Assembly (NCBI GenBank): GCA_017445025.1
Contig: JAFSVJ010000031.1
Span: forward strand, 1-64,000
Origin: Abditibacteriota bacterium
Lineage (GTDB): Bacteria > Armatimonadota > UBA5829
DNA length: 64,000 nt
Direction of reading: 5' to 3'
The notes below the pieces were generated by a model, which saw nothing but the letters and a program-made list of their open reading frames with translations, was not told where the DNA came from and made no database searches. Positions 25,250 through 39,125 of the stretch are shown one piece after another. The translations under genes were made by a program, and so were the position numbers. The number at the start of each line of letters is the position of its first letter. Position 1 is the first letter of the stretch.

Positions 25250-25306
25250 CTGCCCCCTAAGCATAAGCTTGGGGGGTATATTTTTGTGAAGCAAAAGACG
25301 GGAGAT
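25250..25306 (+). repeat. Double-hairpin element, family A, copy 4 (slightly eroded)
   Basis: CTGCCCCCTA skeleton, stem 1 AAGC-ATAA-GCTT, stem 2 TTTTG/CAAAA, end GACGGGAGA. Begins 6 nt after the dehydrogenase stop codon and ends in a T-run, so this copy could also act as a terminator. Confidence 0.7.
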
Positions 25307-25437: not shown

Positions 25438-25503
25438 TAAATGTGTCCCCATATTTTCGAAGAAAATGGGGGGTGGCAGTTGCGTCAGAAACTAACGTGG
25501 GAT
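25438..25503 (+). repeat. Double-hairpin element, family A, copy 5 (stem 2 decayed)
   Basis: TAAATGTGTCCCC left end as in the DUF559-flanking copies. Stem 1 ATTTTC-GAA-GAAAAT is intact; stem 2 is reduced to AGTT/AACT and the terminal G-tract is lost. Confidence 0.65.
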
Positions 25504-25633
25504 TAAAATTTCTGACACTCCCATAAACATAGGGATAAAAAACAAGTATTTTGTTCTTTTTGTGCGTAAAATCCGATAATTTGCCAAAAGGTTAAAAAAT
25601 ATATACCTAAAATTAGTAGATTTTCGGAAAAAT

Positions 25634-25643
25634 ATGGTATAAT
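25634..25643 (+). promoter_or_regulatory. Extended -10 promoter of the restriction island
   Basis: TGGTATAAT (extended -10) with TATAAT at 25638-25643; no clear -35. It lies 30 nt before ATG 25674. Confidence 0.6.
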
Positions 25644-25673
25644 ATATATGAAATAAAATAAAAAGGTATGATA

Positions 25674-26237
25674 ATGAAAATAAAAGATATTGCTAGAATT
25701 GTTGTTGGAAAACCCATTAGTCGTTTTACTGAAAAATCCGGCAATCAAGTGTCTATACTTCAGTGTAAAGATTTTACTGACTTTATAGATTTTGATAACA
25801 TGGAAAAGGTTTTTATTAATTCACAAGAGAGGGTGAATTTTGTTGAAAAAGGCGATATTTTAATTAAAACAATGTCCCCTTATAATATATGTGTTTATGA
25901 TTTTGATGATCCTTGTGTTTTAGGTTCAAGTATGTTTTTACTTAAGGTTAAAGAAGAATACAAGAAAATGTATGATTCTTTCTTTTTAGGTTATTTCATT
26001 AGCAAAAACCTTAATCTTAATTTTGTTAGTAGTGATGGAAGAAAAGCGATTTATAAAGAAGCGTTTATAGATTTAGATATTCCAAATATAAATTATTCAT
26101 TACAAAAACATATAGGAGAGGCTTGGGTTAAGAATAGAAGTATATATAGAATTGAACTAGATTTGGCAAAAAAGAATTATACTTATAATTGTAGTTTACT
26201 TGATGAACAATTTGAAAAAATAAGAGGAAATAAATAA
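25674..26237 (+). CDS. Half-length HsdS-like DNA specificity protein
   Basis: 187 residues from ATG 25674; AAGG sits 7 nt upstream, whereas the ATG at 25668 has no room for it. A single target-recognition-type domain: KIKDIARIVVGKPISRF at the start, KGDILIKTMSPYNICVYDF in the middle, and SLQKHIGEAWVKNRSIYRIELDLAKKNY as the closing conserved helix. Full HsdS proteins have two such domains, so this would act as a dimer or as a partner to the adjacent degenerate methylase. The stop is one base before the next ATG. Very AT-rich, like the rest of the island. Confidence 0.7.
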   Translation: MKIKDIARIVVGKPISRFTEKSGNQVSILQCKDFTDFIDFDNMEKVFINSQERVNFVEKGDILIKTMSPYNICVYDFDDPCVLGSSMFLLKVKEEYKKMYDSFFLGYFISKNLNLNFVSSDGRKAIYKEAFIDLDIPNINYSLQKHIGEAWVKNRSIYRIELDLAKKNYTYNCSLLDEQFEKIRGNK

Positions 26238-26238
26238 T

Positions 26239-27546
26239 ATGTTAAAAGATGCTTATATTTTGTCAAGTATATTGAGACTTTATAGATTAGGAACAGAATA
26301 TAGTATAAAATTATTAGGGTCTGTTTTTTTATTAAAAAAAATATCTGAAGATTATCTTGCCAAGAAAACAACATATAACATTGATGATGAGCATTTATTT
26401 GAACCGGCTGATGTGTTTTTAGAAGATAATTCGTCTACCTTACGGTTAAAAAAGTGCTTGAAGTTTTTAGCAGATAATAATATTATTCTTAAAGATGTGT
26501 TATATATAGATTTTCCTGATAGTATAGATTTATCTTCCTTAATTAATAAAGTTGATGAATGTGATATTAATAGTTTTTCTACTATTTTGGAATATTTATA
26601 TTTAGTTATGACATCAAGATTTGGTGTATATGTTATACCTAAAACAGAAGATTTGGTTAAGAAATTGATAATTAACAGTAATATTGATGTAAATGAAATA
26701 TATAATCCTTGTATTGATAATGGAAATTTTATTTTTAATTTAAAAGATATTAATTGTAAATATTATGGTCATATCAATGATCGTTCAAAAGAATGGGTAA
26801 TTAAGGTTAAGTTATTACTCTTGGATAACAGTTGTGAAAATGTAATTGCAAGTTCCTCTATTACTGAACCTTTTTTTGATAACAGAGAGTTTGATTGTGT
26901 AATATGTGCTCCAACGATTGGAATAAAAATAAATCCAACTTTTTTTATACATAAACTGCCTTCTCAAGGAGTTGAACATATTCACAATTTGTTTTCTGAG
27001 GGATTGTATGTTATAGATTGTATAAATCATTTATCAGATAGTGGGATTGGGCTAATATTTGTTCCTAATATGTTTTTATTTAACCTTATGAATATAGAAG
27101 TTAGGGAAATGTTAGTTAAGAATAATTATATTGATAGTGTAATTAGTCTTGGTCAAATTATTGATAAATCCGGGGTTAGTCTTTCACTTTTAGTTATTCG
27201 AAAGAATAAGAAAAATAAGAATATACAATTTATAGATACTTGTGAAGAAGATAATACCAAAGATTTGCGAAAAAGTATTCTTAATACGGATATTAATAAA
27301 GTAATTGAGGAATACAATTCTACTGAAGAAACAGAGAATAAAGTTATATTGCCTATTGATAAAATAAGTGATAGTTATATACTTCAAGTAGATAATTATT
27401 TAGTAAAGGAAAAACCAAATCCTATTGATACAGGCCGGTTATATGAAGATATAAGAAAATTAAATAAAGAATTGGCAGGTAATAAGGTTATGTTTAAGTA
27501 TCACCTTAATGAGATTAGAAAATTAGTTGAGAGTGAGGTGAAATGA
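26239..27546 (+). CDS. Degenerate HsdM-like protein lacking methylase motifs
   Basis: 435 residues. It aligns by eye with the genuine HsdM encoded at 28861: the region after motif I, the segment LSDSGIGLIFVPNMFLF against LANKGVIAAVAPHGVLF, and SVISLGQIIDKSGVSLSLLVIRK against AVIGLPENLFYGTSIPACILVFK. Motif I (DPTCGSG in HsdM) is NPCIDNG at residues 156-162, and the catalytic NPPF/NMPF motif is CAPT at 223-226. It therefore should not bind S-adenosylmethionine normally or methylate adenine, yet the frame is intact over 435 codons. A DNA-binding scaffold, decoy or sensor role with the half-HsdS is possible. It overlaps the next gene (ATGA). Confidence 0.75.
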   Translation: MLKDAYILSSILRLYRLGTEYSIKLLGSVFLLKKISEDYLAKKTTYNIDDEHLFEPADVFLEDNSSTLRLKKCLKFLADNNIILKDVLYIDFPDSIDLSSLINKVDECDINSFSTILEYLYLVMTSRFGVYVIPKTEDLVKKLIINSNIDVNEIYNPCIDNGNFIFNLKDINCKYYGHINDRSKEWVIKVKLLLLDNSCENVIASSSITEPFFDNREFDCVICAPTIGIKINPTFFIHKLPSQGVEHIHNLFSEGLYVIDCINHLSDSGIGLIFVPNMFLFNLMNIEVREMLVKNNYIDSVISLGQIIDKSGVSLSLLVIRKNKKNKNIQFIDTCEEDNTKDLRKSILNTDINKVIEEYNSTEETENKVILPIDKISDSYILQVDNYLVKEKPNPIDTGRLYEDIRKLNKELAGNKVMFKYHLNEIRKLVESEVK

Positions 27547-28193
27547 TGGATATACCTATTGATATAACTAATGCTATAATCGAGAATGAAAAAAATGTTT
27601 TAAAATGTAGAGAGTGCGGTTGTGAAAGCTTTTTTGATAGCCAAGAAACTTCATTTATTGGGGATGTAGTAAATAATGAGATTAAAGACTTAAGCATAGA
27701 AGTTTATTTTTGTAAAAATTGTGGTATGCCTTTAGCTAAAATTAAATTAGAAAATATAGATGCTGAGAAAATAGAGGTTTCTGAAGGCGGTAAGAAAGAA
27801 GAAGAATTCTATCCTTTCTTCCCGTATGTAGAAGAAATGGAGTTTGAAATAGATGATTATTATAAAAAATATTATAAGGAAGCCTTAAGACTTAAAGATA
27901 TTAATCCAAGGGCATGTATATGTTTATTAAGAGTTCTTGCAGAGCGTTTGCTAATTAGGGAATTTGGTGTTGAAGGAAATACTCTTGGAGATTTAATAAA
28001 TGATTTTAAATCTAAATGGAAAATAAATAAAAGCTTAAGTAATACCTTGAATAATTGTATGAATTTAGGGAACAGTGCCGCACATGGTAATTCAGAAGAA
28101 ATAACTATTATAGATGTATTTTCTATGAATGAGCATATAAAAACTATATTTGAAGAAATATTAGTTAAAGAATCGTATGAATATAAAATGTAA
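27543..28193 (+). CDS. Zinc-ribbon DUF4145 protein (copy 1)
   Basis: 216 residues. N-terminal zinc ribbon (CRECGCES at ~19 and CKNCGMP at ~58), then a DUF4145-type helical domain (NPRACICLLRVLAERLLIREFG; CMNLGNSAAHGN). DUF4145 domains occur alone or fused to type I restriction subunits; their biochemical role is unknown. The ATG overlaps the stop of the degenerate HsdM gene by four bases, so the two are translationally coupled. A second protein of the same architecture sits before hsdR at 33040. Confidence 0.8.
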   Translation: MMDIPIDITNAIIENEKNVLKCRECGCESFFDSQETSFIGDVVNNEIKDLSIEVYFCKNCGMPLAKIKLENIDAEKIEVSEGGKKEEEFYPFFPYVEEMEFEIDDYYKKYYKEALRLKDINPRACICLLRVLAERLLIREFGVEGNTLGDLINDFKSKWKINKSLSNTLNNCMNLGNSAAHGNSEEITIIDVFSMNEHIKTIFEEILVKESYEYKM

Positions 28194-28219
28194 TAATATA
28201 TTATTGCAAAATTTAACAC

Positions 28220-28248
28220 TTGACTTTTTTAGAAAAATATGTTATAAT
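28220..28248 (+). promoter_or_regulatory. Promoter of the active type I RM operon
   Basis: TTGACT (28220-28225), 17-bp spacer, TATAAT (28243-28248). The start site would lie near 28255, which argues for translation from ATG 28290 rather than the in-frame ATG at 28254. Confidence 0.8.
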
Positions 28249-28289
28249 AGAATATGACAGTAAAAACGAAAAGAGAAGAGTGCTTTTTT

Positions 28290-28868
28290 ATGAAAAAGAT
28301 GAAGTTAAAGGATATTGCTTTTATTCAATCCGGTTTAGTGTTAAGTAGGAAAGAAAGTGAGAATAAGGGGAAAGTATATAAAAGATTAACATTTAGGTCT
28401 ATTGGAGATGACGGATTTGATATAAATTCACTGGAAACCTTTAGGACTAATGAGGATATATCACAGTTTTTAACGCAGGAAAATGATATTATTCTAAAGT
28501 TATTTGTTCCCTTAAGAGGAGTTTTGATAGATAAAAAGACTAAAGGTTTTGTGGTTCCTTCTCAATTATGTATTTTGCGACCTAAAGACAATATAGATCC
28601 CGGTTTTTTACTTGGGTATATTAATAGTTTAGGTAATAGAATAGATAATTTGGTGGAAGATGTGGGTTTGTTAGGTCAAAGACTTGTAAAAGTAAAGAGT
28701 CTTAGAGAGATAGAAGTGCCAATGGTTAGCATGGAAAAACAGATATTGGTTTCAAGTATTATTAAAGAACAAAATAAATTGAATGAATTATATAGGGACC
28801 TGATAAAAGAAGAAAACTATAGATTAACAAATATTATTAATTCAGTGTTGGAGATGGGAAATGACTAA
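28290..28868 (+). CDS. Half-length HsdS-like DNA specificity protein (second copy)
   Basis: 192 residues from ATG 28290. Single target-recognition domain: KLKDIAFIQSGLVLSRKE, ENDIILKLFVPLRGVLID, LCILRPKDNIDPGFLLGYINS and the closing conserved helix EIEVPMVSMEKQILVSSIIKEQ. It overlaps hsdM by eight bases. It resembles the half-HsdS at 25674 in size and position relative to an M-type gene. Together with the full-length HsdS at 31912 it gives the locus three specificity genes. Confidence 0.75.
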   Translation: MKKMKLKDIAFIQSGLVLSRKESENKGKVYKRLTFRSIGDDGFDINSLETFRTNEDISQFLTQENDIILKLFVPLRGVLIDKKTKGFVVPSQLCILRPKDNIDPGFLLGYINSLGNRIDNLVEDVGLLGQRLVKVKSLREIEVPMVSMEKQILVSSIIKEQNKLNELYRDLIKEENYRLTNIINSVLEMGND

Positions 28869-30423
28869 TAGAAAGGATATTGAAAGAGCTTTATTTGCAG
28901 GTGCAAATTCTTTAAGAGATACAATAGATGCAGCTAATTACAAAGATTATGTTTTACCCATAATGTTTTTGAAATATTTAAGTGATACTTATTTGGAAAA
29001 TGTGGAAGAGTTATCAAAGCATTATGAAGGTGAGAGATTAGAGCGTCAGAAAAGTTATCTACCTTTTGTTATTGCTGATGAATATTTATTTGACAGTTTG
29101 TATCAAATAAGAAATGATATTAGAATCGGTGAAAAGTTAAATCAAGCAATGAGAGGTATTGAAAACGATAACAGCGACCAGTTATCGGGCGTTTTGAATA
29201 CAGTAGATTATAATTCAGAAATGGCATTGGGGACCAAGGATCATAAGAATGCAATTCTCCGAAACCTTTTGGAAGATTTTAAGAATTTGGATTTAAGACC
29301 TTCACATATAGAAGTCACTAAGGGGGAAGTGCCGGCTGATGTTATAGGTGATGCTTATGAGTATATGATTGGGCAGTTTGCAAGTATGGCAGGAAAAAAG
29401 GCCGGTTCTTTCTATACTCCGGCAGCTGTGTCACAATTAATGGCAAATATAGTTAATGTTCAAGGCGGAGAAAGAGTTTATGACCCGACTTGCGGTTCAG
29501 GTTCATTGTTGATTAAGGCGGCAAAGAAACAGGATCTAAAAAACGTTTCAATTTATGGTCAAGAGGTAAACGGTTCTTCTGTTTCTATGGCAAAAATGAA
29601 TATGTTTATTCATGGAATAAGTGATGCTCATATTGGTTGGGGAGATACTTTGGCAAATCCATTGTTTAAGGATGGCGACGGAAATTTAATGTTGTTTAAT
29701 AAGATAGTTGCCAATATGCCTTTTAGTAAAGATAAGTGGGCGGAAGGCTTTAACCCCGGTGGTGAAGTGACAGAGAATAATGATAAAAAGTTTAAGATGG
29801 AAGCCAAGTTTGATCCTTATAAAAGATTTGCTTGGGGAGTGCCACCGGCAGGTAAAGGAGATTGGGCTTTCTTGCTTCACATGATTTATTCTTTGGCAAA
29901 TAAAGGTGTTATTGCCGCAGTTGCTCCTCATGGTGTTTTGTTTAGGGGTAATGCAGAGGGTAAAATAAGACAGAAGGTAGTGGAAGAGAACCTTTTGGAT
30001 GCTGTTATCGGTTTGCCCGAAAACCTATTTTACGGCACTTCCATTCCTGCTTGTATATTGGTTTTTAAGAGAGGTAAGACAGATAATGATATTTTGTTTA
30101 TAGACGCAAGTAAAAAAGATGAAAAGGGTAATTTAAGGTATGAAAAGGGGACTAATCAAAATCAATTAAACTCTAAGCATATTGAAGATATAATAAATGC
30201 TTATAATGAGAGAAGAGATATTGATAAATTTGCTCATGTGGCAAGTCTTGAAGAAATACAGAGCAATGATTTCAATTTGAATATACCGAGATATGTGGAT
30301 ACTTTTGAAGAAGAGAAATTAATTGATTTTGATGAGGTGCAAAGAAATATATCTAAATTGAAAGTGGAAATAGAGAAATCAGAAGCTCAAATGGAGAAAT
30401 ATTTAAAGGAGTTGGGGTTATAG
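28861..30423 (+). CDS. hsdM: Type I restriction-modification DNA methyltransferase subunit
   Basis: 520 residues. N-terminal HsdM helical domain (KDIERALFAGANSLRDTI; YVLPIMFLKYLSDTYLE), S-adenosylmethionine motif I DPTCGSGSLL from residue 208, motif IV NMPF at 285-288 in place of the usual NPPF/Y, and GVLFRGNAEGKIRQ with AVIGLPENLFYGTSIPACILVF near the C-terminus. It methylates adenine as M2S or M2S2 with HsdS and joins HsdR to cut unmodified DNA. The Asn, Pro and aromatic residues of motif IV are kept, so activity is likely. Translationally coupled to the half-HsdS gene before it. Confidence 0.92.
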   Translation: MTNRKDIERALFAGANSLRDTIDAANYKDYVLPIMFLKYLSDTYLENVEELSKHYEGERLERQKSYLPFVIADEYLFDSLYQIRNDIRIGEKLNQAMRGIENDNSDQLSGVLNTVDYNSEMALGTKDHKNAILRNLLEDFKNLDLRPSHIEVTKGEVPADVIGDAYEYMIGQFASMAGKKAGSFYTPAAVSQLMANIVNVQGGERVYDPTCGSGSLLIKAAKKQDLKNVSIYGQEVNGSSVSMAKMNMFIHGISDAHIGWGDTLANPLFKDGDGNLMLFNKIVANMPFSKDKWAEGFNPGGEVTENNDKKFKMEAKFDPYKRFAWGVPPAGKGDWAFLLHMIYSLANKGVIAAVAPHGVLFRGNAEGKIRQKVVEENLLDAVIGLPENLFYGTSIPACILVFKRGKTDNDILFIDASKKDEKGNLRYEKGTNQNQLNSKHIEDIINAYNERRDIDKFAHVASLEEIQSNDFNLNIPRYVDTFEEEKLIDFDEVQRNISKLKVEIEKSEAQMEKYLKELGL

Positions 30424-30451
30424 ACCATTTTGCTGACGCCAGCAAAATGGT
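30424..30451. repeat. Perfect 12-bp inverted repeat after hsdM
   Basis: ACCATTTTGCTG (30424-30435), loop ACGC, CAGCAAAATGGT (30440-30451), starting at the base after the hsdM stop. No T-run follows. It could attenuate or protect the transcript between hsdM and the downstream insert. Confidence 0.75.
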
Positions 30452-30495
30452 TGATAAAGAATAATAGATAATAGATAGGAGATTTTTATTTTTAT

Positions 30496-31407
30496 ATGAG
30501 TATAGTTAAGAGTTTTTCAGTAGGAAATGGAGATTTGTTTTATATTAATCATGATTCAGATAATTTTACTATGATAGATTGTTGTTTAAATGATGATAAG
30601 AAAGAAGAGAAAATTAAAGAAATAGTAGATTTGGCAAAAAATAAAGGAGTTATAAGATTTATTTCTACACATCCGGACGATGACCATATACATGGTTTAA
30701 AAGATTTGGCAAATAAATTTGGTGTTTTAAATTTTTATTGTGTTGAGAATCAAGTAAACAAGGAGAAGGATAAGGAAGATTTTAATAAATATTATGAATT
30801 AAGAGACGGAGAATATCATTACTATTTAAAAAGAGGCTGTGTAAGAAGATGGATGAATTTAAGTGATGAAGAAAGGAAAGATGCAGGAATTAATATATTA
30901 TGGCCTGATACTAGTAATATAAATTTTAAGGAAGAACTTGCGGCTGCAAATGAAGGTAAAAGATTTAATAATATATCTCCAATAATTCAATATAGCGAAA
31001 ATAATGTTTCAATATTATGGTTTGGTGATTTAGAAGCAGACTTTATGGAAAAAATAAAAGGCTGTATTACTCTGCCTAAAGTAGATATTATATTTGCACC
31101 ACATCATGGTAGAAAAAGTGGCGAATTACCTAAAGAGTGGATAGAACAAATGAAACCAACTTTAATAATAATAGGAGCCGGAGAATCAAAGGATCTATGT
31201 TATTGTTATAGTGAAGATACTAAAACTATTACTCAAAATAGTGCCGGTGATATAGTTTTGATATGTAAACATAATAGTATTTATATTTGTGTTTCAAATG
31301 ATTCATATGAAATGAGTGGTAACAATAACAATAAAATAGAATTTTATAAGGATAAAAAAAATGAATACGGGAAAATAATTTGTCGTATTATATTAAAGGG
31401 AAATTAA
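30496..31407 (+). CDS. ComEC-like metallo-beta-lactamase-fold hydrolase
   Basis: 303 residues. Starts with a short strand pattern typical of stand-alone ComEC/Rec2-type MBL domains (SFSVGNGDLFYINH, then TMIDCCLND). The metal motif is HPDDDHIHG at residues 59-67 (HxDDDH form), followed by GDLEAD (Asp178) and APHHGRKSGE (His203-His204). All expected ligands appear present, so a nuclease, phosphodiesterase or other hydrolase is likely. Cytosolic. It sits within the RM operon between hsdM and hsdS and 3 bases before a small membrane-protein gene, suggesting the two act as a pair. Confidence 0.85.
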   Translation: MSIVKSFSVGNGDLFYINHDSDNFTMIDCCLNDDKKEEKIKEIVDLAKNKGVIRFISTHPDDDHIHGLKDLANKFGVLNFYCVENQVNKEKDKEDFNKYYELRDGEYHYYLKRGCVRRWMNLSDEERKDAGINILWPDTSNINFKEELAAANEGKRFNNISPIIQYSENNVSILWFGDLEADFMEKIKGCITLPKVDIIFAPHHGRKSGELPKEWIEQMKPTLIIIGAGESKDLCYCYSEDTKTITQNSAGDIVLICKHNSIYICVSNDSYEMSGNNNNKIEFYKDKKNEYGKIICRIILKGN

Positions 31408-31410
31408 ATA

Positions 31411-31902
31411 ATGAAAATAGAAATACCTTTTTATAATCTTATAAATATTCTTTTTGTAGGGGTTTCATTTAGTTTTATAAATATAATGATGTATCCTAAA
31501 ATAATGAATTATATGAAAATTCTTAATTATAATAAAAGCTTAATAATATGGATAATATTTATATCATTAACTTATTTTATAGGAGTTATTATAAATCGTT
31601 TTGGTTCATTAATTGAAGATTTTTTAAAGAAATTTAAATTAATAAATTTTGATAATGATTATAAGAAATATCAGATAGTTTTTAAAAAATATCCTAATAT
31701 GTCAACATTATCTAGAGAGTATGCTTTATCAAGAACAGGTGTAGCTATGTTTTTGGTATTATTTGTTGAAACTTTAATAAAAATAATATTATTTAAGACA
31801 ATAATGTATTTTTATTTATCTTTACTATTTTTAGTTATATTATTTGTTTTTATATTTTCTATGAGAAAGTATTCAAATAAAATTTATGTATTAATGCAAT
31901 AG
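31411..31902 (+). CDS. Small four-helix membrane protein paired with the MBL gene
   Basis: 163 residues, four hydrophobic segments at about 8-27, 43-64, 107-130 and 133-153, with a charged loop (residues 68-105) between the second and third. No domain recognised. No charged residues inside the helices to suggest a transporter. It begins 3 bases after the MBL gene and its stop is immediately followed by the hsdS ribosome site. The pairing of a soluble hydrolase with a membrane protein resembles sensor/effector pairs in defence islands, but this is inference. Confidence 0.7.
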   Translation: MKIEIPFYNLINILFVGVSFSFINIMMYPKIMNYMKILNYNKSLIIWIIFISLTYFIGVIINRFGSLIEDFLKKFKLINFDNDYKKYQIVFKKYPNMSTLSREYALSRTGVAMFLVLFVETLIKIILFKTIMYFYLSLLFLVILFVFIFSMRKYSNKIYVLMQ

Positions 31903-31911
31903 GTGATTATT

Positions 31912-33030
31912 GTGAATAAAGAAATTAATAACAGAATTAATGTTACAAATAATTTAAGAATTAATTATTTAAGGGATATAGTCAATATATCTGTTGGTGG
32001 TGATGTTCCAAAAGATAATTATTCAAAAAACAGAAATGAGAAATATCAAATTCCCATATATAGTAACGGAATAAGAGAAATGGCATTATATGGTTGGACT
32101 GATCAAATAAAAATAAATGAACCTTGTATTACAATTTCAGCGAGAGGAACGATTGGGTATTGTACATATAGAAATGAACCGTTTTATCCTATTGTAAGAT
32201 TAATTTGTATAACAAAAAAAGATAAGAAAATTGATTTAAAATTTCTATTCTATTATTTAGATAATATGAATTTTATTCATACAATATCAGGTATTCCACA
32301 ATTAACTATTCCAATGATAAATAAAATTAAAATTCTTGTGCCGCCGAGAGAGGAGCAAGAAAAGATTGCAAATATTTTAGGGGAGTGTGATAGACTTATA
32401 GCACTTAAAAAAGAAAGAATAGAGGAAGAAAAGAAGCTTAAAAAATATCTTATGCAAAAGTTACTCAATCCTAACAGTGGCCTTCGCCTTCCCGGTTTCA
32501 CAACCTCTTGGAAAAAAGATTTATTACAAAACTTATGTTCTATTGATACTGGGAAAAAAGATGTTAAAAATAAACAAGATAATGGCTTGTATCCCTTATT
32601 TATAAGGTCTGAAAATATAGAACGTATAAATACATATTCATATGATGGTGAAGCCATTTTGATCCCAGGTGATGGGAAAGTAGGTGATGTTTTTCATTAT
32701 TACATTGGTAAATTTGATTATCATCAAAGAGTGTATAAATTAAGTGATTTTAATAATTGTTTAGGTAAGTATATTTATTATTATTTGCAAACTCATTTTA
32801 AAAAAAGAGCTTTGGCACTGACTGCAAAAGCAACTGTAGATTCATTAAGAATGGAAATGCTTACAAAAATGCAGATATTAATTCCCTCTTTAGATGAGCA
32901 AGAAAGTATTGTTAATATATTATCTTCCCAAGATAATAAAATTGAACTTCTTGAAAAAGAACTTGAAGAGTGGAAAACCAAAAAGAAAAGTTTAATGCAG
33001 TTGTTATTAACCGGTATTGTCAGAGTGTGA
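31912..33030 (+). CDS. hsdS: Type I restriction-modification specificity subunit, two target domains
   Basis: 372 residues from GTG 31912 (AGGTGA 5 nt upstream; the GTG at 31903 lacks a site). Two target-recognition domains, each closing with a conserved helix: first KIKILVPPREEQEKIANILGECDRL then the coiled-coil spacer KKERIEEEKKLKKYLMQKLL; second KMQILIPSLDEQESIVNILSSQDN then LEKELEEWKTKKKSLMQLLLTG. This is the standard full HsdS that would set the DNA sequence methylated and cut by the complex. It is separated from hsdM by the MBL and membrane genes, which is unusual. Confidence 0.9.
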   Translation: MNKEINNRINVTNNLRINYLRDIVNISVGGDVPKDNYSKNRNEKYQIPIYSNGIREMALYGWTDQIKINEPCITISARGTIGYCTYRNEPFYPIVRLICITKKDKKIDLKFLFYYLDNMNFIHTISGIPQLTIPMINKIKILVPPREEQEKIANILGECDRLIALKKERIEEEKKLKKYLMQKLLNPNSGLRLPGFTTSWKKDLLQNLCSIDTGKKDVKNKQDNGLYPLFIRSENIERINTYSYDGEAILIPGDGKVGDVFHYYIGKFDYHQRVYKLSDFNNCLGKYIYYYLQTHFKKRALALTAKATVDSLRMEMLTKMQILIPSLDEQESIVNILSSQDNKIELLEKELEEWKTKKKSLMQLLLTGIVRV

Positions 33031-33039
33031 GGTAATATT

Positions 33040-33723
33040 ATGGCAAAAAAAGATCCTATGGAATGTCCACACTGTGGAAAAGGAATTTATATAGAATTTA
33101 CTGAAAATAAAATTGTTAATGGTAATAATGAAGTTGGTGATAATTATATTTTATTATTAAGTGGATTTTGTCCTTTTTGTAAAAACCCTATAGTATTAAT
33201 GAAAAAAGGTGAGCTGATTGAAAACTATCAATTAGATACTTCTATTAAGGATTATTTGTGGGGACAAGAAACGATTTATCCAAAGTTTTTATCAAAAGAC
33301 AAATTAAGTGAATATATTCCAAATGATTATCAAAAAGAATATAATGATGTAAAAATAATAAAAGATATTAATCCGAAGGCAAGTGCTTGTTTATGTAGGT
33401 ATTTATTACAAAAGATTCTTCATGAAGAATTAAAAATAAACAAAGGAAATTTACATAAAGAATTAGAAGAATTAGAAAGTATACAAAAGATTCCTTCTGA
33501 ATTGTGTGAAATGCTACAAATATTACGAAAAGTCACTAATTCCGGAGCTCATCCGAATTTGGACAAAAAAACATGTGAAATAATCGAAACAGAACCCGGT
33601 GAAATTGAAATAATGCTTGAAATTTTAAAACAATTATTTGATTTTGTTTTTGTGAAACCTAAGATGTATGAAAAAGCAAAACTTGAGTGGAATGAAAAGT
33701 ATGGAATTAAAATAGATAAATAG
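33040..33723 (+). CDS. Zinc-ribbon DUF4145 protein (copy 2)
   Basis: 227 residues. N-terminal zinc ribbon (ECPHCGKG and GFCPFCKNP), then a DUF4145 helical domain (INPKASACLCRYLLQKILHEEL; VTNSGAHPNLDKKT). Same architecture as the protein at 27543, but clearly diverged. GAGGTA ribosome site. Placed between hsdS and hsdR, it probably associates with the restriction complex; DUF4145 is also found fused to HsdR proteins in some bacteria. Confidence 0.8.
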   Translation: MAKKDPMECPHCGKGIYIEFTENKIVNGNNEVGDNYILLLSGFCPFCKNPIVLMKKGELIENYQLDTSIKDYLWGQETIYPKFLSKDKLSEYIPNDYQKEYNDVKIIKDINPKASACLCRYLLQKILHEELKINKGNLHKELEELESIQKIPSELCEMLQILRKVTNSGAHPNLDKKTCEIIETEPGEIEIMLEILKQLFDFVFVKPKMYEKAKLEWNEKYGIKIDK

Positions 33724-33733
33724 GAGGTGGAGA

Positions 33734-36700
33734 ATGCCTAATCATACCATATTAAATGAGCGTCCCGAATCGCAGGAAAGAGCATTAAAAGTTCTTGAAA
33801 AGTTAGGTTATGAGAGAGTATCTGTATCAGATTCTGATAAAAAGAGAAATGTATCTCAAAGCAAAAAGAATGTTCTTTACTATGATGAGCTTGAAAAATT
33901 CCTTTTAAAGCAAACTTACGATTATGGTAAAGGTCCCACCCGGTTCTCTTCTGCTTCAATTACCAATGCCATAAATGCTTTAGAACCTATTGAACCCAAT
34001 CTTGCCGCCAAAAATAAATCCATATATGAAACCTTATGCAAGGGGAAAAGTCTTGAAGAAATATTGCCCAACGGAGTTCAATCTTTTGACATAAATTATA
34101 TTGATTTTGATAACATAGAAAACAATACTTTTCAGGTGACTGATGAGTTTTCCGTTGAAAGAACTGCCGGCAATACTAATGCTCGCCCGGATATTGTTAT
34201 TTTGATTAATGGTATTCCTCTTGTTGTAATCGAGTGTAAAAAATCTGCTGTTGACGTCATAGAAGGAGTTCGTCAAAATATCAGAAACCAAAAAACCGAT
34301 TATATTCCTCATCTTTTTCAATATTCTCAACTTGTTATTGCCATGAACCCGGATAAAGTTCTCTACGGAACTTGCGGAACCCCCGAAGAGCATTTTACTT
34401 TTTGGCATGAAGATAATACAGATAGGCTTCTCGAAAAATGCAAAGAGTGTTCTCCTGACGGCACCGTTAAAGAACAAGACAAATCTATCATTTCACTTTT
34501 AGAACCCAAAAGACTTTTAGATCTCATCGAAAACTTTATAATTTATGATAACAAGATTAAAAAAATAGCTCGATATAAACAGTATTTTGCTGTTAAAAAG
34601 TCAATGGCTCGTATATTGGGACAAGATGGAAAAGAAACTCATAACGGTGTTATTTGGCATACTCAAGGTAGCGGTAAAACCCTCACCATGATTATGCTTG
34701 CCAAAATGATATTAAAAGAGAGTTATAAACCAACATCTCCTTTCAAAAATCCAAGATTTGTAATGGTGACAGACAGAATCAACCTTGACAAGCAAATATC
34801 AGATAATTTCAGAAAAACATCTATGACACCCATAAAAGCTACTTCCGGAAAGAATCTTGTGACTTTATTACAAAATGATAATAATACTGTTATTACCTCT
34901 ATTGTAAACAAATTTGAAGCAGCCATAAAACAAAGGTTTAAAAAAGAAGATGATAACATATTTGTATTTATAGACGAAGGACATAGAACTCAATACGGAA
35001 AGCTTAATTTCTATATGCAAAATGTGCTTCCTAATGCTGTTAAAATTGCCTTTACCGGAACTCCCTTAATTTCAAAGCCAAAAAGAAACTCAATTTTGCC
35101 CGCAAGGGATACTTTTAAGAAATTTGGTCCTTTGATTGATAGTTATACATTTACCGATGCCATTAACGATGGTGTCACCGTTCCTATAGTCTATGAGGGA
35201 AGGATCATTCCTCAAAATGTGACCAATGATGAAATTAACAAACACTTACAAATGATAACAATAGGCTTAAATGATGAAGCTAAAAAGGACCTTGAAAAAA
35301 AATATTCTCAATATATAAGGTTGTCACAAACAGATCAAAGACTAAGGATATTGGCTTTTGATATATATGATCATTTTATAAAATATGTAAAAAGTTTTAA
35401 TTATAAAGCAATGTTAACTTGTTCTTCAAGAGCCTCTGCCGTAAAAATGTATAATCTGTTAAAAACTTTTCAAAACATAAACCCCGCTGTTGTTATAAGT
35501 GGTTCAAGTCTTAAAGAGGGAGATGATGAAGTTTTAACAAAAGAAGATGAAATTTTAATCAATAATTTCTTTAAAGACGTTGTGGACCCTCAATATAAAA
35601 ATAATTATGATGATTATGAGGATATGGTGACAGAAAACTTTGTAGACCCGGAAGGAGATATTGATTTTCTTATTGTTAAAGATAAACTTTTAACAGGATT
35701 TGACGCTCCGGTAGCACAAGTTTTATATGTAGATAAATCCTTAAAAGAACACAATCTTCTTCAAGCTATTGCAAGAGTAAATCGTGTTTTTCCGGAAAAG
35801 GCCTTTGGTTTAGTTGTTGATTACTGCGGTATATTTAAAAAGTTAAATACTGCAATGGATATGTATTCTGACGAAAAATCAGAATTAGATATATTCAGTG
35901 AAAAAGATTTGGAAGGAGCGCTTGTATCTATCGCTGATCAAAAGAAGCAAATTGAAGAATTATATTCAAAATTATTTAGTTTCTTTGAAGGTATTGATAA
36001 AAATGAGTCAAATCCCAATAAATGGCAAACAGCTCTTGAAGATGATCAAAAAAGAAAAGAATTTTATGATATTTCTTCAAAATTCAATAAATATATAGAT
36101 TTATTGTTTTCTTCAATAGATTTATATAATGAAATCGGAGAAAATCAAGCAAAGATTTATCAATCTGATAATATTTTCTTTGAGAAACTAAAGCGAAGTG
36201 TTAAATTAAGATATAATGATATTGTAGACTTTTCTAAATATGAAAGTGGTGTAAAAGCTTTAATAGATACTCATGTTATGGCTGAAACTGCTAAAACTTT
36301 AATCGCTCCACTTGACATTTCTTGTAAAGAAAAAATGGAAGAACAACTTGAAATTCTTGGGGATAATTCTGCGGCAAAAGCTGATGCCATAAGAACAAGG
36401 CAAACAGAAATACTTGAAAGTTGTCAATATGATGATCCTTTAAAATATATTACTTTCAAAGACAGAATTAATAACACCCTTCAAGAATATGCCAAAGAAA
36501 GAGATGCTGAAAAATACTTAATTGAAATGGAAAATATAAGAGAAGATTTTCAATTAGGTTTAAGTCAAGGTTCTTATCCTGATAATATTACTTTTGACTC
36601 TAATGCAAAATCATTCTTTGGAAGTATGTGCAGTGGATTAAAAAAGAAAAATAAGTCTTCTAAGGGATTTGATAACCAAATTACAGGAAATATGGCTATT

Positions 36701-36898
36701 AATATTAAAAAAGTGATTGAAGATAATACTACAAAGCCTGACTGGAGAGAAAGTTCAGAAACTATTAAAAATATTAAGGCAAAATTAGATAATATTCTCT
36801 GTGACTATATGGATAATAATAAAGAAGCCGGGTGGGATTATGATCTGGTAGATATTATTATTGAAGAAATTTTAATGACAGCTAAAAGGATCTATTAA
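33734..36898 (+). CDS. hsdR: Type I restriction endonuclease/translocase subunit
   Basis: 1054 residues. N-terminal PD-(D/E)xK nuclease with Asp153, Glu167 and Lys169 (ARPDIVILI..LVVIECKKS). Superfamily 2 motor with Walker A GSGKT around Lys315, DEGH at 414-417, AFTGTPL, and LLTGFDAPVAQVLYVDKSLKEHNLLQAIARVNR for the late helicase motifs. The C-terminal helical region contacts the methylase. ATP-driven translocation and cleavage of DNA lacking the HsdM/HsdS mark. TAGGAGGTGG ribosome region. It overlaps the following peptidase gene (TAATG), so that gene is part of the operon. Confidence 0.95.
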   Translation: MPNHTILNERPESQERALKVLEKLGYERVSVSDSDKKRNVSQSKKNVLYYDELEKFLLKQTYDYGKGPTRFSSASITNAINALEPIEPNLAAKNKSIYETLCKGKSLEEILPNGVQSFDINYIDFDNIENNTFQVTDEFSVERTAGNTNARPDIVILINGIPLVVIECKKSAVDVIEGVRQNIRNQKTDYIPHLFQYSQLVIAMNPDKVLYGTCGTPEEHFTFWHEDNTDRLLEKCKECSPDGTVKEQDKSIISLLEPKRLLDLIENFIIYDNKIKKIARYKQYFAVKKSMARILGQDGKETHNGVIWHTQGSGKTLTMIMLAKMILKESYKPTSPFKNPRFVMVTDRINLDKQISDNFRKTSMTPIKATSGKNLVTLLQNDNNTVITSIVNKFEAAIKQRFKKEDDNIFVFIDEGHRTQYGKLNFYMQNVLPNAVKIAFTGTPLISKPKRNSILPARDTFKKFGPLIDSYTFTDAINDGVTVPIVYEGRIIPQNVTNDEINKHLQMITIGLNDEAKKDLEKKYSQYIRLSQTDQRLRILAFDIYDHFIKYVKSFNYKAMLTCSSRASAVKMYNLLKTFQNINPAVVISGSSLKEGDDEVLTKEDEILINNFFKDVVDPQYKNNYDDYEDMVTENFVDPEGDIDFLIVKDKLLTGFDAPVAQVLYVDKSLKEHNLLQAIARVNRVFPEKAFGLVVDYCGIFKKLNTAMDMYSDEKSELDIFSEKDLEGALVSIADQKKQIEELYSKLFSFFEGIDKNESNPNKWQTALEDDQKRKEFYDISSKFNKYIDLLFSSIDLYNEIGENQAKIYQSDNIFFEKLKRSVKLRYNDIVDFSKYESGVKALIDTHVMAETAKTLIAPLDISCKEKMEEQLEILGDNSAAKADAIRTRQTEILESCQYDDPLKYITFKDRINNTLQEYAKERDAEKYLIEMENIREDFQLGLSQGSYPDNITFDSNAKSFFGSMCSGLKKKNKSSKGFDNQITGNMAINIKKVIEDNTTKPDWRESSETIKNIKAKLDNILCDYMDNNKEAGWDYDLVDIIIEEILMTAKRIY

Positions 36899-37617
36899 TG
36901 GAGACCATAAATATTATTATTGATAATAAAACCATTCCCGTATCGGTTGAAAGAAAAGACATTAAAAGAATAATCCTTAAAGTCACCCCTTTAATGGAAG
37001 TTAAAGTTTCAGCTCCTAAATATATATCTTGCCAAATTTTAAATGATTTTCTTAATGAAAAAACTAATTGGATAAAGAAGAAATTAGATAATTTTTCTAA
37101 AACAGAAGGCTATGCCTCTACAATAGATATAAAAACAGGTTCTTCATTTGTAATAGATGGAATGGATTACATTATTGAAATTAAACAAGGAGAAACTGAT
37201 TCTGTAGCCTTAGATTACAAAAAAATAATCGTTTTTGTTACTGACATAAATAATAAAACTTTAATAAAGAAAACATTTGATTCTTGGTGGAATGAATTTA
37301 GTATCTTTATCATAAAAAAATCTCTTGATAAAATGTATCCTATTGTTGCTAAACATAATATTCCTTATCCTTCAATTTCATTGAGAACTATGAAAACTAT
37401 GTGGGGGAATTGTAATATTCAAAAACATAAAATAGTATTTAATAGATATTTATGTAAAGGGAAAGTATATCTAATTGAATATGTGGTTCTTCATGAATTG
37501 GTTCATTTTTTATATCCAAAACACAATAAACTTTTTTATGATTTTTTAAGCATTCATATGCCAGATTGGAAGCAAAGAAAAAAAGAACTTGATCTTGAAG
37601 TAGTTCATGGATTATAA
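36898..37617 (+). CDS. YgjP/SprT-like zinc metallopeptidase (DUF45/M48-type)
   Basis: 239 residues. The DUF45 (YgjP-like) pattern is clear: KRIILKVTPLMEVKVSAPKYIS near the N-terminus, MWGNCNIQKHKIVFNRYLC, then HELVH at 199-203 with a third His in YPKHNKLFYDF and MPDWKQRKKEL. Cytosolic metalloprotease fold. The ATG shares a base with the hsdR stop. Genes of this family are often found after hsdR; a role in turnover of the restriction complex is plausible but not shown. Confidence 0.88.
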   Translation: METINIIIDNKTIPVSVERKDIKRIILKVTPLMEVKVSAPKYISCQILNDFLNEKTNWIKKKLDNFSKTEGYASTIDIKTGSSFVIDGMDYIIEIKQGETDSVALDYKKIIVFVTDINNKTLIKKTFDSWWNEFSIFIIKKSLDKMYPIVAKHNIPYPSISLRTMKTMWGNCNIQKHKIVFNRYLCKGKVYLIEYVVLHELVHFLYPKHNKLFYDFLSIHMPDWKQRKKELDLEVVHGL

Positions 37618-37769
37618 TAGTCTAATTAAAAACAATTGATATCTGGTATGAGTGTAGTTTTTTATGCGAAAATTGAACTATAATAGTGATTAAATTATTG
37701 GATATTTAAAAAGAGATCGTTTAGAAAGTGGATGAAGTGAATAGACCAAATAAGATCTGAAATTTAGAG

Positions 37770-37799
37770 AAAAAAAAGCCCAAGGTGTTGTCTTGGGCT
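37770..37799 (-). terminator. Intrinsic terminator of the minus-strand LRR gene
   Basis: AGCCCAAG (37777-37784) and CTTGGGCT (37792-37799). On the minus strand the stem is followed by eight T (plus-strand A-run 37770-37777). It also meets the end of the plus-strand RM operon. Confidence 0.85.
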
Positions 37800-37814
37800 A
37801 TATCTTTGTTTTAT

Positions 37815-38620
37815 TTAATATACTTTGCTTTTTGTTTTAAAATCATATAAATGTTCCTTTTTATCCGGACCTATGAAGTAAATATTTTTTAAAGTTAAAT
37901 TTGTGTTTATATTATTTGTTTTATTTTCTATTTCTTTTAATGTTAAATAGTCATTATAATTATCGTAATTATTAAATTTAATAGATCCTACTTTTGATAT
38001 TGCAAATGCATCAGAATCAAATGTAGTGCTGTTATCTACATTAAGATCTTGTATAGCGGTAAAAGCAAAAGCATATCTTCCAATATGTTTAGTTATTTTT
38101 ATATTTAAGTAATTCAATCTAATGCAATGATTAATAGCTGTTTCATCAATACTTGCTAATGAATTTTTAAGATTTATACTTTGCAGATTTAAACATTTAG
38201 AAAAACAACACGTAGGTATATTATCCAACCCCTTAGCTTTTAAGTTAACTGAATTAAGCGACTGACACTCTCTAAAACTATATTCGTTTAATATAACAAT
38301 GTTTCCTACAGAGTATATTTTTTCTAAATATTTAATATTGACAAAACAAAATCGATCTATCATTCTAACACTTTCCGGAATATAGAAAATATCCCCGGTT
38401 TTTTCACAAGGATATGAACATATTACAGATGGTTTCCTTTTTTTATCGTCTTGTTATAACCATATATTACCCCATCGATAGCTTCAAAATTACTATTATA
38501 ATCCATATGAAAAGCTTTTAAAAATGGAAGATAGTAAAAGGCACCATAGTAGAAGCTTTCTAAAGAACTTGGCAAATATATTTCTTTGATTTGTAGTCTA
38601 TTTTCAAAAGCAAAACGCAA
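37815..38620 (-). pseudogene. BspA-type leucine-rich repeat protein, 5'-truncated and frameshifted
   Basis: Read on the minus strand, LRR_5 repeats run from FAFENRLQIKEIYLPSSLE to the end (CQSLNSVNLKAKGLDNIP, CLNLQSINLKNSLASI). The frame breaks in a run of seven A (about 38438-38444). With eight A the protein reads through as GYNKTIKKRKPSVICSYPCE, followed by TGDIFYIPESVRMIDRF, which is exactly the usual linker of this family. The 5' end is cut off abruptly at about 38620, where an HsdR fragment on the other strand starts. BspA-like proteins are usually surface or cytosolic binding proteins. A slip-prone A-run could restore some product. Confidence 0.8.
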
Positions 38621-39125
38621 AAACTTAGTTATTAAAGATTTAGAAGAACTAATACAAGAAAAAATTAATAATTTAATTACTGTAAATCCTACTCATATCA
38701 GAATGGATTATTATAAAAGATATCAAGCAATTATTGATGAATATAATAGCGAACAGGATAAATCAAAAATAGAAAAAATTTTTAATGATTTAATGAGACT
38801 TGTTGAAGAATTAACAGAGGAAGAAAAAAGATATATTAGAGAAGAGTTTGATAATGACGAAGAATTAGCATATTATGATATGTTATTCCGTGAAAATCTA
38901 AGTAAAAATGATATTAAGAAGCTAAAGGAAGTTGCAGTAGAACTTTATAATAATCTTAAAGTTAAAATTGAAGAGCTTGATAATTGGAAAGAAAAAGATA
39001 ATACAAGAGCTACAGTTAGAAATTTAATTAAAAACACTTTATATGATAAATTACCGGATAGTTATGCTACGGAAGTTATTCCTCAATATATTGAACAATT
39101 ATATGAATATGTTTATAGTAGATAA
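38613..39125 (+). pseudogene. C-terminal fragment of a second HsdR (DUF3387-type)
   Basis: About 170 residues with no proper start, ending at a TAA at 39123-39125. The sequence matches the C-terminal helical domain of type I restriction R subunits: NPTHIRMDYYKRYQAIIDEYN, then MRLVEELTEEEKRYIREEF, ELAYYDMLFRE, ATVRNLIKNTLYDKLPDSYA. It differs from the C-terminus of the intact HsdR upstream, so it comes from another R gene. Its N-terminal ~900 residues are missing and it is joined head-on to the truncated LRR gene. Confidence 0.8.

Follow-up and report, generated by a model that had tools for sequence, protein, structure and literature searches.

Beside a type I restriction-modification (RM) operon in an Abditibacteriota bacterium stand three tightly coupled genes, encoding a half-HsdS (S1), an HsdM-like protein devoid of methyltransferase motifs (M1) and a zinc-ribbon DUF4145 protein (D1). 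The question raised by this locus is whether parts of a type I RM system that appear unable to modify DNA may still serve a purpose, or whether they are what is left of a system that once did. A pseudo-enzyme that retains the recognition apparatus of a defense enzyme is a natural candidate for a role as guard or decoy, and the trio is a compact three-gene test case. All positions refer to the window, the whole stretch of 64,000 nucleotides that was analyzed.

The trio, its promoter and the neighboring operon

The trio spans positions 25674-28193, with a gap of 1 base between S1 and M1 and an overlap of 4 bases between M1 and D1, in agreement with the initial annotation. That annotation also gave the trio a promoter of its own, a claim supported by a terminator-like hairpin at the end of the upstream metabolic operon and by an extended -10 sequence, AAAAATATGGTATAATA, matching a genome-wide motif (in this genome it occurs 19 times exactly, compared with 2 for the reversed control, and 95 times with up to one mismatch). 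The Shine-Dalgarno sequences of M1 and D1 are plausible. The same promoter type recurs in the interval between D1 and S2, so that the trio is probably transcribed separately from the RM operon downstream of it. The likeness of the promoters in front of S1 and S2 was at one point taken to indicate duplication, an argument that we dropped since the motif is genome-wide.

Table 1. Features of the trio and of the adjoining RM operon (window positions).
Feature	Position	Strand	Evidence
Terminator-like hairpin, end of upstream metabolic operon	25251-25278	+	
S1-M1-D1 promoter, extended -10 AAAAATATGGTATAATA	25628-25644	+	genome-wide motif
S1, half-HsdS, 187 aa	25674-26237	+	PF01420 23.7 bits; half-S family alignment
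M1, catalytically dead HsdM-like, 435 aa	26239-27546	+	PF02384 59.4 bits; motifs X, I-IV lost; HsdM-like model
D1, zinc ribbon + DUF4145 (HEPN family), 216 aa	27543-28193	+	PF13643 40.4 bits; alignment; model
Separate promoter of the RM operon, extended -10, TTGACT-17-TATAAT, 11/12	28220-28248	+	
S2, half-HsdS (alternative start 28254)	28290-28868	+	PF01420 27.3 bits; chassis relatives
M2, intact HsdM, DPTCGSG, motif IV NMPF	28861-30423	+	TIGR00497, PF02384
Metallo-beta-lactamase (MBL)-fold cargo, PADLOC PDC-M48B	30496-31407	+	410 bits
PDC-M48A-like cargo, predicted membrane protein	31411-31902	+	47 bits
S3, full HsdS	31903-33030	+	PF01420 154 bits
D2, zinc ribbon + DUF4145 HEPN, R and H kept	33040-33723	+	PF13643 45.5 bits; related to 9y9c
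HsdR	33734-36898	+	TIGR00348 503 bits
SprT/YgjP-like metalloprotease, last gene of operon	36898-37617	+	PF01863 151.5 bits

The RM operon (28254-37617) encodes, in this order, S2, M2, the MBL-fold and PDC-M48A-like cargo proteins, S3, D2, HsdR and SprT. Its layout follows a chassis of half-S, M, cargo, S, cargo, R and SprT that we found at 19 loci. These loci come from Campylobacterota, Pseudomonadota and the phylum of the window itself; some are truncated ahead of R or SprT, and one (L084) has uncertain gene ends. Examples with the two variable cargo slots and the terminal SprT are L018, L082, L182-L188 and L191-L197, and the cargo of the chassis ranges over RhuM, Abi, NucS, Shedu, TIGR04141, DUF3800, KAP and PIN proteins. 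No described role for the half-S or the SprT of this chassis was found in the literature that we searched.

The window showed several further features around these genes. The MBL-fold and membrane protein pair (30496-31902) is inserted between hsdM and hsdS; relatives of the MBL-fold protein occur on plasmids at 45-54% identity, one of them near a type I RM system in Staphylococcus epidermidis. The NMPF that replaces NPPF in M2 has a counterpart at locus L059, where the motif IV of a second HsdM reads NIPF. No long high-identity inverted repeat of the kind expected for an invertible hsdS was found between the S genes. The GC content of the defense region (25500-39000) is 25-35%, against 40-44% in the genes just upstream, as expected for acquired DNA. 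Downstream of the operon, a frame at 38586-39122 matches PF11867 (60 bits), a profile for the C-terminal part of type I HsdR; this remnant of another type I system suggests a defense hotspot.

Loss of motifs and retention of the frame

The initial annotation aligned M1 with HsdM along its length, and both the family profile (PF02384) and the AlphaFold2 model agree. The top PDB matches of the model are HsdM structures (3lkd at E 9e-16, PacII and EcoR124I; Foldseek), and the model closes with a long C-terminal helix (400-434). Mean pLDDT is 65.7, with values of 80-94 in places within the core and low confidence at the N-terminus, where the domain is shrunken by large deletions. The motifs for SAM binding and catalysis are gone, and the loss is wider than first claimed. 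In motif X, GEFxTP has become VYVIP; in motif I, DPxCGSG has become NPCIDNG; GQE of motif II and GDTL of motif III read GHI and SSIT. The annotated NPCIDNG is thus right, whereas the CAPT given for motif IV lies one column early, the NPPF columns reading A-P-T-I in our alignment. All of the other approximately 100 aligned HsdM homologues (some rows being overlapping copies of one gene) keep Asp-Pro in motif I and Asn in motif IV; M1 alone lacks them. M1 retains 23 of the 52 conserved columns of the C-terminal half, twice the proportion seen across the motifs (11 of 51). Judged by these motifs, M1 is almost certainly a pseudo-methyltransferase and not a methyltransferase.

Could M1 simply be a normal hsdM in recent decay? 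Its identity to every relative found is 18-25%, and close relatives with intact motifs, which the initial annotation had named along with frameshifts as signs of decay, were absent from the searched collections. Neither stops nor frameshifts occur in the three consecutive genes. An open frame of 435 codons has a chance probability of about 2e-20 at this composition, and when M2 was subjected to simulated neutral decay down to 25% identity it acquired at least 24 stops, with a mean of 35. Because the 435 codons have stayed open and the approximately 19 indels that separate M1 from other HsdM proteins are all in frame despite identities of at most about 25%, recent decay appears very unlikely from the sequence. 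Moreover, the codon usage of S1, M1 and D1 follows that of the RM genes (r 0.90-0.93). These frame, indel and codon arguments for constraint are indirect, and compatible with weak present-day selection.

The partners of M1 are recognizable. S1 scores just above the Pfam threshold of the HsdS specificity domain (23.7 bits, cutoff 22), and its IPxI...Q..I pattern and C-terminal region align with a half-S family, which bears out the conserved closing helix of the initial annotation. In 19 other type I loci, a member of this family immediately precedes a single intact HsdM. D1 matches DUF4145 (PF13643) and carries two CxxC pairs; its low-confidence model (pLDDT 55.7) is most similar to HEPN proteins, with a Foldseek E of 0.07 at best. 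DUF4145, a part of the HEPN superfamily, is known to occur alongside zinc ribbons and within R-M operons; an Arg...His motif is conserved in approximately 80% of its members (PMC3710099). D1 keeps the His of this motif and D2 keeps both residues. Arg is present at the other motif position in D2 and in 11 of 15 relatives, but D1 has Met there; with the Arg...His pair of HEPN RNases incomplete, D1 may not be an RNase. By sequence, the DUF4145 protein of the RAZR:GP77 structure (PDB 9y9c) is matched by D2 at E 3e-4 and by D1 at E 0.18, and PADLOC gave PD-T7-4 matches.

Relation to the neighbor and search for sister modules

The trio and the adjoining operon share three pairs of paralogues side by side, S1 with S2 (local alignment score 88, identity ∼20-24%), M1 with M2, and D1 with D2 (30% identity). 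Because of these pairs, the trio resembles an additional, diverged copy of the 5' unit of the RM chassis together with its HEPN cargo, an origin that fits better than three unrelated new parts. Direct duplication of M2 into M1 is unsupported, since M1 could not be placed on a tree (its end branch is ∼10 substitutions per site); it is no nearer to M2 (27 bits) than to other HsdM proteins (60-67 bits).

The initial annotation spoke of a module, and we therefore searched for co-occurring homologues of the three proteins; a second example did not emerge from the accessible collections. No orthologue of S1, M1 or D1 was found in 291 genomes of the phylum, 28 of the class among them. Peptide patterns run against GTDB genome contigs gave a single match, an ordinary HsdM, and whatever matched in the phylum genomes, plasmids, phages and viral contigs, if anything did, proved to be an ordinary HsdM or DUF4145 protein; the pattern-based scans reach fairly close relatives only, so that a distant sister module could escape them. 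One candidate, on a Fusobacteria plasmid (L190, 9827-12190), was rejected, the 594-aa protein that follows its half-HsdS being unrelated to M1. This pair lies between hsdR and hsdM, and the 594-aa protein ends in an Rx4H (RHCSAH) HEPN-like motif, placing a half-S beside a possible HEPN effector. Since the trio stands alone across the collections accessible to us, a singleton, naming a new system is premature. The statement that no described system has this composition agrees with the literature that we searched.

Possible roles and known systems

The reading that we prefer, tentatively and at somewhat less than an even chance, is that S1 and M1 form a non-methylating S-M recognition complex that is coupled to D1 and acts as a sensor, decoy or regulator beside the RM system. 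By analogy with known systems, we infer that S1 and M1 would assemble and bind DNA, either as an M2S2 complex like that of AhdI or mixed with S2 and M2, and that the product would neither bind SAM nor methylate. In defense it would act without catalysis, by sensing, by serving as a decoy or by regulating the neighboring RM system, and its tie to D1 would resemble that of the EcoprrI RM complex to PrrC, a HEPN nuclease. The joint loss of motifs X and I-IV, while the C-terminal half was better retained, argues for such a complex, as do the frame kept open through extreme divergence, the codon usage shared with the RM genes and the HsdM-like model with its C-terminal helix. Each step has a precedent. 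Half-HsdS can dimerize and work with M in M.AhdI (PMC2878638), as can engineered half-S (PMC6158711); in PacII the C-terminal tail of M assembles M with S, in a heterotypic M1M2S complex (PMC9613975); and PrrI keeps PrrC inactive (PMC3710099). Against our preferred reading stand the singleton status of the trio, which leaves co-conservation unproven, the Met for Arg in D1 with its weak model, and the shrunken, low-confidence N-terminus of M1. The more specific proposal, that half-HsdS and pseudo-methyltransferase would constitute a DNA-reading or anti-restriction-decoy complex controlling a HEPN-family effector, and thereby an undescribed type of system, we regard as unlikely. If it were true, the trio would show, through its dead HsdM, dedicated half-HsdS and HEPN partner, that parts of type I RM systems can be turned to sensing without modification. 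The finding also points to the widespread half-S/M/cargo/S/R/SprT chassis.

Other explanations must be weighed against this reading. S1 and M1 could instead replace an active subunit in M2-S2 or M2-S3 complexes, leading to hemi-methylation or to damped modification and restriction, and D1 may likewise mix with D2. The adjacent paralogous pairs, the heterotypic assembly known from PacII, the C-terminal helix kept in M1, and the lack of catalytic residues in one partner of the M pair and one of the D pair all favor mixing; however, the low score of M1 to M2 and the low identity of S1 to S2 make compatible interfaces doubtful, and we consider this explanation rather unlikely. The trio could also be a relic: an old half-S/M/HEPN unit would have been left without its restriction partners and would now drift, with selection weak or absent. 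Its singleton status, the catalytic residues gone from M1 and partly from D1, the large N-terminal deletions of M1 and the fragment of another hsdR nearby are what a relic would predict. However, three consecutive intact genes at a divergence where approximately 35 stops would be expected, indels that are in frame without exception, an intact promoter and ribosome-binding sites, and the still recognizable HsdM family of M1 argue otherwise, and a relic seems to us fairly improbable.

In a third explanation, D1 would be an ordinary abortive-infection HEPN protein of the RAZR/PD-T7-4 type that senses phage proteins, with S1-M1 as a mere antitoxin-like partner or scaffold devoid of a DNA role. RAZR is an RNase activated by phage ring proteins, and the zinc-ribbon DUF4145 layout of both D1 and D2, the PD-T7-4 matches and the similarity to the RAZR:GP77 structure point in this direction. 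However, D1 lacks the arginine of the family, and PD-T7-4 and RAZR are to our knowledge described without S-M partners. We consider this explanation a long shot.

None of the known systems compared matches the trio in full. The chassis operons of Gluconobacter, Paracoccus, Acinetobacter, Aliarcobacter and other plasmids share the layout of the neighboring operon and the half-S family of S1, but a second HsdM or a DUF4145 gene is present in none of the 19 loci. RAZR and PD-T7-4 have the domain layout of D1 and D2, although D1 differs from them at the motif arginine, and we know of neither with a dead HsdM and half-S. The M.AhdI type resembles the trio in that a half-HsdS adjoins HsdM, S1 ending 1 base before M1, and in that a half-S dimer can replace a full S; in contrast to that enzyme, which methylates a palindromic bipartite site as M2S2, M1 has no catalytic or SAM motifs and the trio no cognate restriction gene. 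As in PacII, one locus encodes two different HsdM proteins. Both PacII proteins are active, however, with NPPF and NPPY and one S, whereas motif IV reads APTI in M1 and NMPF in M2, and here the dead HsdM is transcribed separately, together with a half-S of its own. Finally, although PrrI is an active RM system and PrrC an ABC-ATPase/HEPN nuclease, unlike the arginine-less zinc-ribbon D1, EcoprrI-PrrC shares with the trio the linkage of a HEPN-superfamily protein to type I RM components.
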